The notes below the pieces were generated by a model. It saw nothing but the letters and a program-made list of their open reading frames with translations. It was not told the DNA's origin and made no database searches. A stretch of 60,083 nt of DNA from Candidatus Ornithospirochaeta stercorigallinarum (GTDB lineage Bacteria > Spirochaetota > Spirochaetia > Sphaerochaetales > Sphaerochaetaceae): NCBI GenBank assembly GCA_018711525.1, contig DVIF01000010.1, positions 1-60,083 on the forward strand. The letters run 5' to 3'. The translations under genes and the position numbers were made by a program. How positions within the stretch are numbered: position 1 is the stretch's first letter; every line of letters begins with the position of its first letter. Below, one piece after another: positions 16,965 through 28,820 of this stretch.

Positions 16965-17037
16965 AATTAATCTGATTTTAACATGGAGGAGATAATAAAT
17001 AAAACTTTTCTCATCATAATACCTCTATGGAGGAATT

Positions 17038-18621
17038 ATGAGAAAATTCGTTGCTCTTTTTTTAACTGTGTTTTTTTCCCTCTTTTCTTTTGCTTCCGCA
17101 TCAGACCTGTCACTTACGTTCCTTGACCGCTACGAAAGCGGTATGTTCAATACCGATGGCGGGGTAATGGAGATTGTTGATTATTCTCCATATTCAGGAA
17201 AGGCTTATGCCGTTAACGGGCAGAGCGGACTGTTAGCGATTATCGGATATGATGAAAACGGCTTATACGGAGAAGATTTTGATGTGAAGGCTGTCATAGA
17301 AGAAGCCGATGCTTCTTTCTCCTATGGGGATATGACAAGCGTCTCCGTCTCATCTGACGGATCTCTTCTGGCTGTTGCCTTGCAGGCTGAAGGGTATGAT
17401 GAGAACGGAAGGATTGCTCTTTTCAGCATTGCAAAGGATGGTAGCATCACTTTAAGAAGCATATATGAGGCGGGTGTTCAGCCTGATATGGTTGTCTTCG
17501 GCGGGTATCTTATCCTCAGTGCTAATGAAGGAGAGCCCAGAGAAGGCTATGATGCAGCAGATCCGAAGGGAAGCATCACGGTTGTGGATCTCTCTTCATC
17601 AAGTGTCGAGAATCTTTATTTCGATGATTTTGACGGAAAGAGGGATGAGCTTGTAGAGAAAGGAATAGTAATCAAGAAGGGAGCACTGCCTTCTGTCGAT
17701 TTCGAACCTGAGTATATTGCAGTAAGCGGAAACCTTGCGTTCGTCACTCTTCAGGAGGCGAACGCGGTTGCGACTGTGGATTTGAAAAACAGAAGGATTG
17801 TCGATATAAGCTCCTTGGGATTTGAGGATTATTCAAAGACTGCTATCGACATCGATAAGAAAGACGATACATATGCTCCAGAGACATATGATGGTCTATA
17901 TGGAATCAGGATGGCTGATGGCATTGCAGCATTCTCCATCGATGGAAGGACTTATATCGCAACGGCAAATGAAGGGGATAGCCGTGAATGGGATGATTAC
18001 CTAAATGAAGTCGAAGCCGATTTCGGAGATGGGAATCTCTCTCCTTCCTCTAGAAGCTATGATGTGGAAGGAAAAGTGGTATTCTTCGATTCCTCTGATT
18101 ACGATGGGCTTGATTCAGAATACGACTATCTTTTCGGGGGAAGGAGTATGACAATATATTCAGTTGAGGATGGAGAGCTTGTCTTTGCTTCTGCAGACGA
18201 TGCAGAGAGCATCACATATTCCATTCTTCCTGAGTATTACAACTCCTCGAATGATAATGCCACAATCGATGACCGCTCTGGAAAGAAAGGTCCTGAGCCT
18301 GAGAGCATCACAGTAGGAGAAGTGAATGGAAGATACTATGCATTCCTTGCTCTGGAGCGCACAGGCGGTGTTATGGTCTACGATGTTACAGACCCATATG
18401 ATGCAGAGTTCGTGACCTATGTGAACACAAGGGATTTCACATCCATAGTTCCAGGCTCTGAGGAGTATGAGGATGGAGAGCTTGACAAATGGGTGACAGG
18501 GGGAGATGTCGCGCCGGAGGGTCTTTGCTTCATTTCTGAGGAAGAAAGCCCGATAGATGCACCTGTCCTTCTTGTCGCCAATGAGGTTTCGGGAACAGTA
18601 GCAGCCTACTTGGTAGACTGA
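17038..18621 (+). CDS. Secreted choice-of-anchor-I type beta-propeller protein
   Basis: A 527-residue exported protein. A signal peptide (residues 1-21, ending ASA-S) precedes repeated beta-strand blades with motifs typical of the choice-of-anchor I family: PDMVVF near residue 150, ANEGEPR, PEYIAV, IATANEGDSREW near residue 300 and the late GDVAPEGL segment. Acidic loops rich in D, E and S suggest calcium binding. There is no anchor domain at the C-terminus, so it is probably periplasmic or secreted. The family is loosely tied to phosphoesterases and cell-surface functions; the substrate is unknown. GGAGG precedes the ATG. It is a single-gene unit with its own terminator. Confidence 0.8.
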   Translation: MRKFVALFLTVFFSLFSFASASDLSLTFLDRYESGMFNTDGGVMEIVDYSPYSGKAYAVNGQSGLLAIIGYDENGLYGEDFDVKAVIEEADASFSYGDMTSVSVSSDGSLLAVALQAEGYDENGRIALFSIAKDGSITLRSIYEAGVQPDMVVFGGYLILSANEGEPREGYDAADPKGSITVVDLSSSSVENLYFDDFDGKRDELVEKGIVIKKGALPSVDFEPEYIAVSGNLAFVTLQEANAVATVDLKNRRIVDISSLGFEDYSKTAIDIDKKDDTYAPETYDGLYGIRMADGIAAFSIDGRTYIATANEGDSREWDDYLNEVEADFGDGNLSPSSRSYDVEGKVVFFDSSDYDGLDSEYDYLFGGRSMTIYSVEDGELVFASADDAESITYSILPEYYNSSNDNATIDDRSGKKGPEPESITVGEVNGRYYAFLALERTGGVMVYDVTDPYDAEFVTYVNTRDFTSIVPGSEEYEDGELDKWVTGGDVAPEGLCFISEEESPIDAPVLLVANEVSGTVAAYLVD

Positions 18622-27192: not shown

Positions 27193-27211
27193 TTATTTCC
27201 TATTCAGTCCT
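27185..27211. repeat. Hairpin spanning the convergent stop codons of mscS and rlmE
   Basis: AGGACTGA (27185-27192) and TCAGTCCT (27204-27211) form a perfect 8-bp stem with an 11-base loop. The mscS TGA is the end of the left arm and the rlmE TAA (27193-27195) opens the loop. Neither strand has a U-tract, so it may protect 3' ends or stop transcription weakly from both sides. Confidence 0.65.
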
Positions 27212-27792
27212 ATCAGGAAGATTTCAAAACTATCATCACGGGAGGCCTTCGGTTTGAAGGCCTTTGCTTTTGCAAAAAGCTCCCTCATATGTCTCAGGAT
27301 CTCTGCCTCTCCGCCTCCCTGGAAGATCTTTATGACAAGATTCCCTCCCTTTTTAAGCTGCTCCTCAGCAAGTCTGACAACCTCGGAGGCAAGGTGTTCG
27401 CTTCTGCTTGTATCCACAGTCCTGTTGCCTGTCGTCATAGGGGCGGCATCGCTTATGATGGCATCGTATGGTCCCAGTTCTGTAAGACGCGCTCTGATTT
27501 CCTTTGAAAAGGCATCACCGGTTATTTCTGTCACGGTAGGTGGGACGGGATCGAGGGAGAGGGGATTGAGGTCGCACGAGACGATCCTTCCGTTTCCCTT
27601 TAGAAGCATCCTGTGCGTGTATAGCGTCCATGATCCGGGAGCCGCTCCGACATCAAGAACGCTGTCCCCGGGCTTTATGATCCTTTCTTTCGCGTTGATC
27701 TCTTCAAGCTTGTATACGCTTCTTGCAGGATAACCTTCCCTGTGCGCTCTCTGTGTGTATGAGTCTGCCTTATCCCTTCGTGAATTCGCCAT
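27193..27792 (-). CDS. rlmE: 23S rRNA 2'-O-ribose methyltransferase RlmE (FtsJ)
   Basis: A 199-residue SAM-dependent methyltransferase modifying U2552 of 23S rRNA in the family. K28 of the catalytic K-D-K-E set is in SVYKLEEI, the SAM motif VLDVGAAPGSW is at residues 46-56, the catalytic Asp is in ISDAAP near 107 and the Lys in VIKIFQGG near 147. I start at the ATG 27790-27792 because family members begin just before the YxxRAxxEGYxARSxYKL segment; a longer in-frame reading to 27894 runs through a terminator and is rejected. TATAGT lies six bases upstream, again leaderless. Confidence 0.93.
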   Translation of the reverse strand: MANSRRDKADSYTQRAHREGYPARSVYKLEEINAKERIIKPGDSVLDVGAAPGSWTLYTHRMLLKGNGRIVSCDLNPLSLDPVPPTVTEITGDAFSKEIRARLTELGPYDAIISDAAPMTTGNRTVDTSRSEHLASEVVRLAEEQLKKGGNLVIKIFQGGGEAEILRHMRELFAKAKAFKPKASRDDSFEIFLIGLNRK

Positions 27793-27804: not shown

Positions 27805-27815
27805 CAGCAAAAATG

Positions 27816-27867
27816 AAAAAAAAACAGCATCGTCGACGGATGGGATGGGAGAGAGTGTCGACGATGC
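27816..27867 (-). terminator. Intrinsic terminator of small RNA B
   Basis: An 11-bp perfect stem (GCATCGTCGAC/GTCGACGATGC; 27857-27867 with 27827-27837) is followed on the minus strand by TG and nine Ts. Confidence 0.9.
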
Positions 27868-27929
27868 CACCATTCTAATTTGTTTTTCACTCATATATAC
27901 AAGGAGGTGAAAAAACTGTTGCTCTGTTA
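27816..27929 (-). ncRNA. Sigma-54-dependent small RNA B with anti-Shine-Dalgarno loop (~114 nt)
   Basis: Transcription from the sigma-54 promoter at 27940-27956 should start near 27929 and stop in the U9 tract at 27824-27816. The 5' part matches RNA A: AACAGAGCAA, CAG, a U6 run and CACCUCCUU. Bases UUUUUCAC (27914-27907) pair perfectly with GUGAAAAA (27890-27883), placing CUCCUU in a 16-base loop. The second hairpin is the terminator, whose 19-base loop is also C-rich (CUCUCCC, then AUCCCAUCC). C-rich loops of this kind bind ribosome sites in Gram-positive sRNAs. No protein frame fits, so I infer a regulatory RNA. Confidence 0.7.
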
Positions 27930-27939
27930 TCTTTTATTA

Positions 27940-27956
27940 CGCAAAGTACGTGCCAA
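27940..27956 (-). promoter_or_regulatory. Sigma-54 (RpoN) promoter B
   Basis: Minus strand TTGGCACG-TACT-TTGCG matches the consensus YTGGCACG-N4-TTGCW except for the last base. It sits directly upstream of small RNA B. Confidence 0.8.
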
Positions 27957-27999
27957 GTCTGTTTTTCGGCCTTTTTATGCTGTAAACAGAGGAAAGCAA

Positions 28000-28032
28000 T
28001 GTGAAATTTTTTCACAGTGGGAAATTTTTTCA
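28000..28032. promoter_or_regulatory. Candidate enhancer (activator) site between the two sigma-54 promoters
   Basis: TGTGAAATTTTTTCACA (28000-28016) is a 17-bp palindrome centred about 79 bases upstream of the predicted start of RNA B, a usual distance for sigma-54 activators. Its core GAAATTTTTTCA (28003-28014) is repeated directly at 28021-28032, 18 bases on. Confidence 0.45.
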
Positions 28033-28037
28033 TGCAT

Positions 28038-28067
28038 AAAAAATGGCACCCTATAGGAAAAGGTGCC
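28038..28067 (-). terminator. Intrinsic terminator of small RNA A
   Basis: On the minus strand GGCACC/GGTGCC (28062-28067 with 28045-28050; 6 bp, 11-base loop) is followed by A and six Ts. Confidence 0.85.
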
Positions 28068-28114
28068 GAAAATGCTAAAAAAAGGAGGTTGAAAAAAACT
28101 GTTTTGCTCTGTTA
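28038..28114 (-). ncRNA. Sigma-54-dependent small RNA A with single-stranded anti-Shine-Dalgarno (~77 nt)
   Basis: From the promoter at 28125-28141 the RNA should start near 28114 and end at the terminator at about 28038. Its 5' half is nearly identical to RNA B: AACAGAGCAA, CAG, a U7 run, then CAACCUCCUU and a U-rich tail before the terminator. The C-rich stretch lies between U runs with no obvious partner, so it should be accessible for pairing with AAGGAGGUUG-type ribosome sites. The 180-bp offset between the two units suggests a duplication whose 3' parts have diverged. No protein frame is credible on either strand. Confidence 0.7.
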
Positions 28115-28124
28115 CTTATTACGT

Positions 28125-28141
28125 AGCAAATAGCGTGCCAA
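28125..28141 (-). promoter_or_regulatory. Sigma-54 (RpoN) promoter A
   Basis: Minus strand TTGGCACG-CTAT-TTGCT is a perfect match to YTGGCACG-N4-TTGCW. It is oriented away from the rhomboid gene and toward small RNA A. Confidence 0.88.
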
Positions 28142-28196: not shown

Positions 28197-28820
28197 ATGC
28201 CTAATATCCTGAACAGGAAATTCCAGTATTCGTTCTGGAATGCCAATATGATGATTGTAGCTTTGAACGTATTAGTCTTCTTCATCTCTAATTACGTCTA
28301 TCCATATCTGACCTACATGCTTGCTTTGATGCCTTTGCGCATAATCGCCGAGCCTTCAAGCTGTTATACCTTCGTGTCATATATGTTTGTCCATGGGAGC
28401 ATCTATCATCTGTTCTCGAACATGCTCGGCCTTGTTATCTTCGGTACGATTCTTGAACGCCGCATAGGAAGCAAGGAGTATCTTCTGTTCTATTTCCTTA
28501 CCGGGACGCTCTCCGGAGTGCTTTCCTTCCTCTTCTATTATCTCACGGGTTCTTATTTCGTATTCCTCTTAGGAGCCAGCGGTGCCTTATATGCGGTGAT
28601 GCTGCTCTTTGCGGTATTCTTTCCTGATGCGATGGTCTTTGTATTCGGTATCATCCCGATGCGTGCCATCACACTTGTCGTCTTCTATTTCATAATAGAG
28701 TTCGCATCTTCCTTCGCCTCAGACGGCATAAGTCACATAACACATCTGTTCGGACTTCTTGCGGCTCTTCTATACATAATGATCAGGATGAGGATCAATC
28801 CATTCAGAAGGCGTCAGTAG
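28197..28820 (+). CDS. Rhomboid-family intramembrane serine protease
   Basis: A 207-residue membrane protein with six helices, the minimal bacterial rhomboid core. The conserved HGSIYHLFSNM segment (residues 66-76) supplies the oxyanion residues, the nucleophile is Ser128 in GASGA and the general base is His183 in HITH. It cleaves membrane-anchored substrates within or near the bilayer; the substrates are unknown. The 3' end overlaps the pullulanase gene on the other strand by seven bases. The start is the ATG at 28197, placed six bases after a -10 element. Confidence 0.9.
   Translation: MPNILNRKFQYSFWNANMMIVALNVLVFFISNYVYPYLTYMLALMPLRIIAEPSSCYTFVSYMFVHGSIYHLFSNMLGLVIFGTILERRIGSKEYLLFYFLTGTLSGVLSFLFYYLTGSYFVFLLGASGALYAVMLLFAVFFPDAMVFVFGIIPMRAITLVVFYFIIEFASSFASDGISHITHLFGLLAALLYIMIRMRINPFRRRQ

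Follow-up and report, generated by a model that had tools for sequence, protein, structure and literature searches.

Two short transcription units lie in tandem on the minus strand between an rlmE/FtsJ-family gene and a divergent rhomboid-family gene in the window, by which we mean the whole 60,083-nucleotide stretch of Candidatus Ornithospirochaeta stercorigallinarum DNA that was analysed (Table 1). As the initial annotation had proposed, each unit has its own sigma-54 promoter, a shared 5' block and its own intrinsic terminator. It also held that neither has a credible protein frame, and inspection of the open reading frame list by eye gives no plausible one. The RNA starts predicted from the −12 elements fall near 28114 and 27929, so that both RNAs would begin at a −24/−12 promoter, which is the criterion for a sigma-54-dependent sRNA. 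The predicted folds of the pair are unlike, with a 5' hairpin in unit 2 and none in unit 1. A covariance model of the family, R1, matches unit 1, which is itself in its training set, at 28037-28112 with 65.6 bits, and unit 2 at 27815-27927 with 36.9 bits (E = 4.3e-7).

Table 1. Positions of the two units, their parts and the flanking genes in the window
Feature	Position	Strand	Remarks
Sigma-54 promoter, unit 1	28125..28141	−	TTGGCACGctatTTGCT; core TGGCACG-ctat-TTGCT at 28126-28140
sRNA, unit 1	28037..28114	−	type A, without 5' hairpin, short terminator; ~76 nt; predicted start
Conserved 5' block, unit 1	28082..28113	−	AACAGAGCAAAACAG-U7-CAA-CCUCCUU; antisense AAGGAGG-UUG-AAA-AAA-ACU-GUU
Intrinsic terminator, unit 1	28038..28067	−	
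Palindromic enhancer-like site	28000..28016		TGTGAAAAAATTTCACA; between the two units; putative
Sigma-54 promoter, unit 2	27940..27956	−	TTGGCACGtactTTGCG; core TGGCACG-tact-TTGCG at 27941-27955
sRNA, unit 2	27815..27929	−	type B, 5' hairpin and C-rich terminator loop; ~113 nt; predicted start
Conserved 5' block, unit 2	27901..27928	−	AACAGAGCAACAG-U6-CAC-CUCCUU; antisense AAGGAG-GUG-AAA-AAA-CUG-UUG-CUC
Predicted hairpin, unit 2	27883..27915	−	UUUUUUCAC paired with GUGAAAAA; anti-SD CUCCUU within the loop
Intrinsic terminator, unit 2	27816..27867	−	
C-rich motif	27842..27852	−	UCUCCCAUCCC; within the terminator loop of unit 2
Rhomboid-family gene	28197..28820	+	divergent flank
rlmE/FtsJ-family gene	27193..27792	−	flank

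Conservation, setting and structure of the units

The 1.93 Mb assembly contains six copies of the pattern TGGCACN5TTGC, two of these being the promoters discussed here, and none of the reversed pattern. Another site precedes a pspA-like operon (on contig C27) beside a PspF-like EBP, assigned by resemblance. Separate from it, a PspA/IM30-family gene on C52 (L133, near 9145) has its own sigma-54 promoter. On C57 (L134, near 13042) a further sigma-54 promoter, with GTGTATCATAATGACACATT twice upstream, precedes two hsp20-like genes (Pfam was run on one), which are likely a sigma-54 heat-shock operon. The sixth site, inside a gyrase-B-like coding sequence, is probably due to chance, as judged by eye.

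Beyond this assembly, we collected 106 distinct matches on promoter, TTTTTC and ACCTCCT alone, without the AGAGCA word. AGAGCA is nevertheless present in 93 of them, and GAGCA or AAGCA in 100. In 89 of the 93 cases AGAGCA starts 11-17 nt downstream of TTGC, so that the conserved block lies at the predicted sigma-54 start or immediately downstream. Over the 106 matches the 10 nt that precede the U-run have an information of 0.8-1.7 bits, which drops to 0.1-0.6 bits further upstream; in a second set of 136 units, anchored on AGAGCA-like words, the conservation seen is partly a product of that choice. The conserved 5' block spans ca 30 nt, and CCUCCUU is present in 131 of 133 units. At locus L033, from 1241 onwards, the promoter and the C-rich terminator loop occur, but CCUCCUU is missing and no CA follows the U-run, and the upstream copy at this locus is one unit that lacks CCUCC.

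The promoter followed by ACCTCCTT is found in 85 of the 139 genomes of the window's family (f1, taken as GTDB's Sphaerochaetaceae; NCBI puts Bullifex and Ca. Ornithospirochaeta in Spirochaetaceae), while the reversed pattern is found in none. In a sample of 297 genomes of the class there are 32 matches, 30 of them among 44 f1 genomes and two among 253 outside. One of these two (G202 of family f3; locus L035, on the same contig as L123) has rhomboid and FtsJ-like neighbours and a variant block, and is likely a homologue; the other (G375) was judged by eye to be a chance match. The conservation in relatives on which the initial annotation depended is seen most fully with R1, which finds the sRNA family in 123 of the 139 genomes. 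A related pattern matches 74 stretches of the named collection, all from spirochaetes. Their titles give bacteria of the Spirochaetes, Spirochaetia, Spirochaetales, Spirochaetaceae or Sphaerochaetaceae and, at the level of genera, Sphaerochaeta, Pleomorphochaeta, Bullifex, Ca. Ornithospirochaeta and Ca. Aphodenecus. A gene of the rhomboid or FtsJ cluster lies near 57 of the 75 loci examined, and both lie near 34; many of the 75 end at a contig edge and some lie in other settings. With relaxed promoters, two or more units are found at 43 of 79 distinct loci. Judged from these patterns, many gut and anaerobic spirochaetes seem to have at least one sRNA gene with a stress-type switch.

Terminators were detected in 133 of the 136 units, with 95 distinct arm sequences, and score at least 14 in 115 of 134 units versus 9 of 670 shuffles. 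The terminator stems covary: their pairs change on both sides, at 7/7 and 10/10 pairs in two alignments. For alignment, near-identical units were collapsed (60 of 133 kept). The type-B alignment has 22 of 25 rows (without the first unit of L016, L033 and L040) and the type-A alignment, on which R1 was built, 29 of 35 (without L035, two of L043, two of L047 and L073); a further alignment, A2 (26 of 28 rows), was set aside, part of it having slipped out of register.

The C-rich terminator motif assigns 62 of 133 units to type B and 71 to type A, with a few labels wrong. TCTCCC occurs in 60 of the 62 type B units, where the presence of a C-rich motif is given by definition, and its mean unpaired probability over the 60 is 0.98. 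A 5' hairpin whose loop contains the anti-SD is associated with type B: 33 of the 42 distinct B segments have at least four expected pairs (shuffles 90/210), versus 5 of 40 A segments (shuffles 30/200). Such a hairpin in type A finds no support, with 1.53 expected pairs versus 1.75 in shuffles over 40 segments. The U-run and the rest of the 5' block are unpaired to 0.51 and 0.58, respectively, in the predicted folds of 133 units. The U-run of most type B units is enclosed in the unit's own predicted hairpin, and this pairing is another possible reason for its conservation.

Control of the units

From the sequences upstream of the units a palindrome, TGTGNAAWWWTTNCACA, can be read. When scored on the same sequences from which it was derived, it reaches at least 13/15 in 99 of 151 units versus 10 of 1510 shuffles, the other 52 units being below 13. 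Eight of 36 genomes contain its strict form, seven of these at the sRNA locus, and the seven include three genomes that the strict promoter pattern misses. In the window's assembly the strict form occurs only at the site between the two units, whose centre is ca 53 bp upstream of promoter 2 and ca 120-130 bp from promoter 1. Unit 1 lacks a good palindrome of its own (9/15). A comparison by eye shows no palindrome shared between these units and the hsp20 or pspA promoters, and hsp20 has a repeated motif of its own.

The window's genome (G000) is one of the 59 of 60 genomes in which rpoN is found, as the sigma-54 reading of the initial annotation presupposes. G031, from the window's genus, has no match to rpoN or to the sRNA and no group B regulator, while EBPs remain; this is either a real loss or an assembly gap. 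Four strong EBPs are encoded in G000, two of them in the NtrC-type groups A and B, and four genomes (G076, G109, G106 and G063) have only two EBPs at E ≤ 1e-20, from groups A and B. A PspF-like EBP as the general activator is doubted, being absent at the same threshold in four sRNA-bearing MAGs.

At E ≤ 1e-150, group B is detected in 116 of the 139 genomes, and at E ≤ 1e-180, group A in 120. The sRNA and group B occur together in 108 genomes, the sRNA only in 15, group B only in 8 and neither in 8 (Fisher p = 0.0009); the corresponding numbers for group A are 108, 15, 12 and 4 (p = 0.24). These p values ignore phylogeny and MAG gaps, which can fake co-absence, and group B absence in three genomes follows from elimination among the matches listed. 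Five of the eight double absences of sRNA and group B fall in the window's genus, and four of those cluster in the EBP tree. G103 (three contigs, 98% complete) has the sRNA and group B without group A, while G061 (98% complete) and G028 (95%) have the sRNA and group A with no detected group B. The kinase beside the group B regulator has a hydrophobic N-terminal part followed by HisKA and HATPase.

Pairing with translation starts, and rival readings

Reverse-complemented, the 5' block reads AAGGAGG-(spacer)-NUG-AAA-AAA-CUG-UUG-CUC, or NUG-AAA-AAA-ACU-GUU-GCU after the spacer when there are seven U, so that one RNA carries the complement of both SD and start codon and the block resembles, in antisense, the beginning of a signal-peptide gene. 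In all 110 distinct blocks an anti-start codon follows the U-run (UUG 58, AUG 44, GUG 7, CUG 1), where the C is given by selection for T5-8 then C and many blocks are related by descent. Divergent blocks retain a similar reading, MKKLLLC with other Leu codons (L040), MKKIVLLC (L048), MKKTFLL (L217) and MKNTLTAL (L035). Five U are found in 18 of the 110, and 14 of these 18 read KNCC, not KK.

We now consider which mRNAs such a block would favour. Export genes were called by a simple in-house rule that requires early Lys/Arg, not by SignalP, with gene starts chosen partly by SD score in parts of the genomes, and on this basis the coding-side pairing in G000 (555 genes) separates export genes with AUCs of 0.653 and 0.594 versus a shuffled mean of 0.381, as good a value being reached by 0/31 and 1/31 shuffled blocks. 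In G117 (362 genes) the AUC is 0.614 versus 0.414, with 0/31 shuffles as good. These AUCs are modest. When the U-run and CA are kept and the rest is shuffled, 72, 61 and 47 of 100 shuffles give an AUC as good or better, and the mean export-gene pairing beats 94, 96 and 80 of 100.

In samples of 850 (G000), 362 (G117) and 295 (G106) genes, the in-register match to export genes has z values of 6.5-8.9 if the start codon is counted and 4.0-6.3 if it is left out, over five block/genome pairs. Non-export genes also match in register (z 5.0-7.7), mainly via the start codon. Genes starting with NTGAAAAAA are export-like in 15 of 16 cases in G000 and 10 of 10 in G117. Antisense positions 10-18 (CUG-UUG-CUC, codons 4-6) are not above background against export genes (z 0.2-1.0). 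An extended codon match thus lacks genome-wide support, codons 4-6 being at background and shuffling of the 5' part leaving the AUC unchanged, and the conserved 5' part would have another role or few targets. From these comparisons, selectivity appears to rest on the anti-start triplet and the anti-Lys run, with the anti-SD added. In the window itself, the predictions include as a strong target the start region of a choice-of-anchor I gene (17038-18618, plus strand), to whose antisense the sRNA model also has a weak match, at 16983-17059 (15.3 bits, E = 0.045).

The initial annotation had taken CCUCCUU, which is the usual 16S 3' tail, to be a general anti-SD seed. A seed role is in line with its being predicted mostly unpaired (mean 0.85, 131 units), but its generality is doubtful, because the conserved block is longer and U-run-CA is antisense to start codon-Lys-Lys. 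Generic anti-SD RNAs would block any mRNA with a strong SD, with the remaining block serving stability or protein binding. The near-constant CCUCCUU, predicted to be mostly accessible, suits such RNAs, and AAGGAGG precedes 46 of the 555 G000 genes sampled and 11 of the 362 from G117. They would not, however, readily account for conservation over some 30 nt, for a constant CA followed by a base that varies like that of a start codon, or for pairing that favours export genes, and we regard this explanation as unlikely.

A rather slimmer chance is given to the possibility that the RNAs have one or few specific targets, e.g. a periplasmic 5'-nucleotidase, and that the likeness to signal peptides derives from that target. 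A 5'-nucleotidase-family gene ranks 1/850 among the predicted targets in G000 and 1/295 in G106, with different blocks, and the start of a G000 gene for an exported protein of no Pfam family matches perfectly over 16 nt, the longest match in the sample. The nucleotidase rank, on the other hand, was noticed after the fact in partial genome samples, and three other nucleotidase-like genes of G000 rank 69, 80 and 344, while one in G117 ranks 80/362.

The U-rich and C-rich motifs are conserved and several copies occur per locus, as might be expected of decoys that titrate an RNA-binding protein by their U-run and C-rich loops; CrcZ is an RNA that acts in this way. None of 60 genomes, however, has a match to Hfq, the only RNA-binding protein looked for (among controls, 5 of 14 genomes gave one), and CA-CCUCCUU follows the logic of a ribosome site, which makes decoys improbable. 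A small plus-strand signal-peptide gene, to which the minus-strand reading would be secondary, can be dismissed as very improbable: the antisense reads SD, NUG, KK and often hydrophobic residues, and 24 of the 136 frames are at least 40 codons long, but the SD-start distance is at most 1 nt in 90 of 134 cases, the frames are short (median 18.5 codons, 136 frames), conservation between block and promoter is poor, and promoters and terminators are oriented the opposite way.

Known systems and proposed function

Rfam, which holds the Qrr and GlmY/GlmZ families, gives no gathering match in the window or in 20 related loci, so that neither family is recognised here. An assignment of unit 2 to LhrC (RF00616) was rejected, its score being 19.6 bits where 110 are required (E = 1.6), as were two permissive matches below threshold, Atu_Ti4 on the opposite strand (25.4 bits) and a viral leader hairpin (16.8 bits). 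GlmY/GlmZ, to which the initial annotation had likened the pair, act through RapZ and seem a poor model; Qrr, LhrC and the csRNAs fit better. These three are the mechanistic relatives of the spirochaete sRNAs.

In the available part of the published account, LhrC1-5 of Listeria are multicopy sRNAs that respond to envelope stress via a two-component system, with Hfq dispensable, and bind the SD by CU-rich UCCC motifs in a hairpin loop, a single strand and the terminator loop (PMC4132741). Unit 2 likewise has CU-rich motifs in its predicted hairpin and terminator loops, and the likeness extends to multicopy arrangement and, as proposed for the window's RNAs, to action without Hfq, SD binding and induction by envelope stress. 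The organism and the LisRK system differ, and that part of the account describes no anti-start/Lys block (PMC4132741).

The csRNAs of Streptococcus are, according to the sections available, five similar sRNAs under one two-component system, CiaRH, in hosts without hfq, and are complementary to SD and start codon (CAU in 53/61, others anti-GUG or anti-UUG); they differ in CiaR control and in an anti-TIR placed between two hairpins, and no Lys-codon run is described in those sections (PMC3091779, PMC4507080). The Qrr sRNAs of Vibrio, in the portion available, have a sigma-54 promoter (TGGCA-N7-TGC) and upstream sites for the NtrC-type response regulator LuxO (PMC10162802); five Qrr siblings are given for V. 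harveyi. The sigma-54 promoter is the likeness to our units, for which the upstream palindrome and the NtrC-type regulators are candidate counterparts. Qrr sRNAs differ in having quorum regulators as targets and are Hfq-dependent, and we know of no anti-SD seed of the spirochaete kind in them. SisA-D of Caulobacter, likened here by description and not by sequence, are four siblings with a common 10-mer of anti-SD signature, and SisA overexpression represses many targets, as far as the available part of the source goes (PMC12559287); phylum and control are different. For the pair in spirochaetes itself, the initial annotation knew of no precedent, and the titles and abstract starts met in searches of open-access literature contain no description of the family.

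We propose that the units form a conserved family of sigma-54-dependent, trans-acting sRNAs that represses the translation of exported proteins, and give this reading a probability of roughly 0.6. Transcription from the sigma-54 promoters to the intrinsic terminators is strongly suggested by the sequence. With weak to moderate confidence, an NtrC-type response regulator would bind the palindrome and fire the promoters, with group B, whose regulator neighbours a membrane histidine kinase (G000:C83), a likelier candidate than group A. In cells without detected Hfq, CCUCCUU and U5-8-CAN, the antisense of a start codon and Lys codons, would then pair with translation initiation regions and together favour mRNAs of signal-peptide proteins, with the C-rich terminator loop as an additional contribution of type B units. 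More speculatively, the result would be a smaller load of exported proteins during envelope stress, the sRNAs supplying the repression within a sigma-54 regulon that here also seems to include two pspA-like genes and the hsp20 pair. Such an arm is plausible, since the other likely sigma-54 genes of G000 are envelope or heat-stress genes. RybB and MicA form the sRNA repression arm of the sigma-E envelope-stress response; the proposed role is analogous, but they depend on sigma-E and Hfq and target outer-membrane proteins.

A bolder version, which we put forward tentatively and with the odds somewhat against it, is a two-component system whose main output would be the sRNAs, throttling secretome initiation collectively by antisense pairing under envelope stress, with the open A and two-loop B forms as paired tools. 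If the main proposal is true, there would be a global sRNA circuit in a spirochaete family without detectable Hfq, present in most of its genomes, and an sRNA may recognise a protein class by its export-signal codons instead of one mRNA each. The family offers a test case for sRNA action without Hfq.
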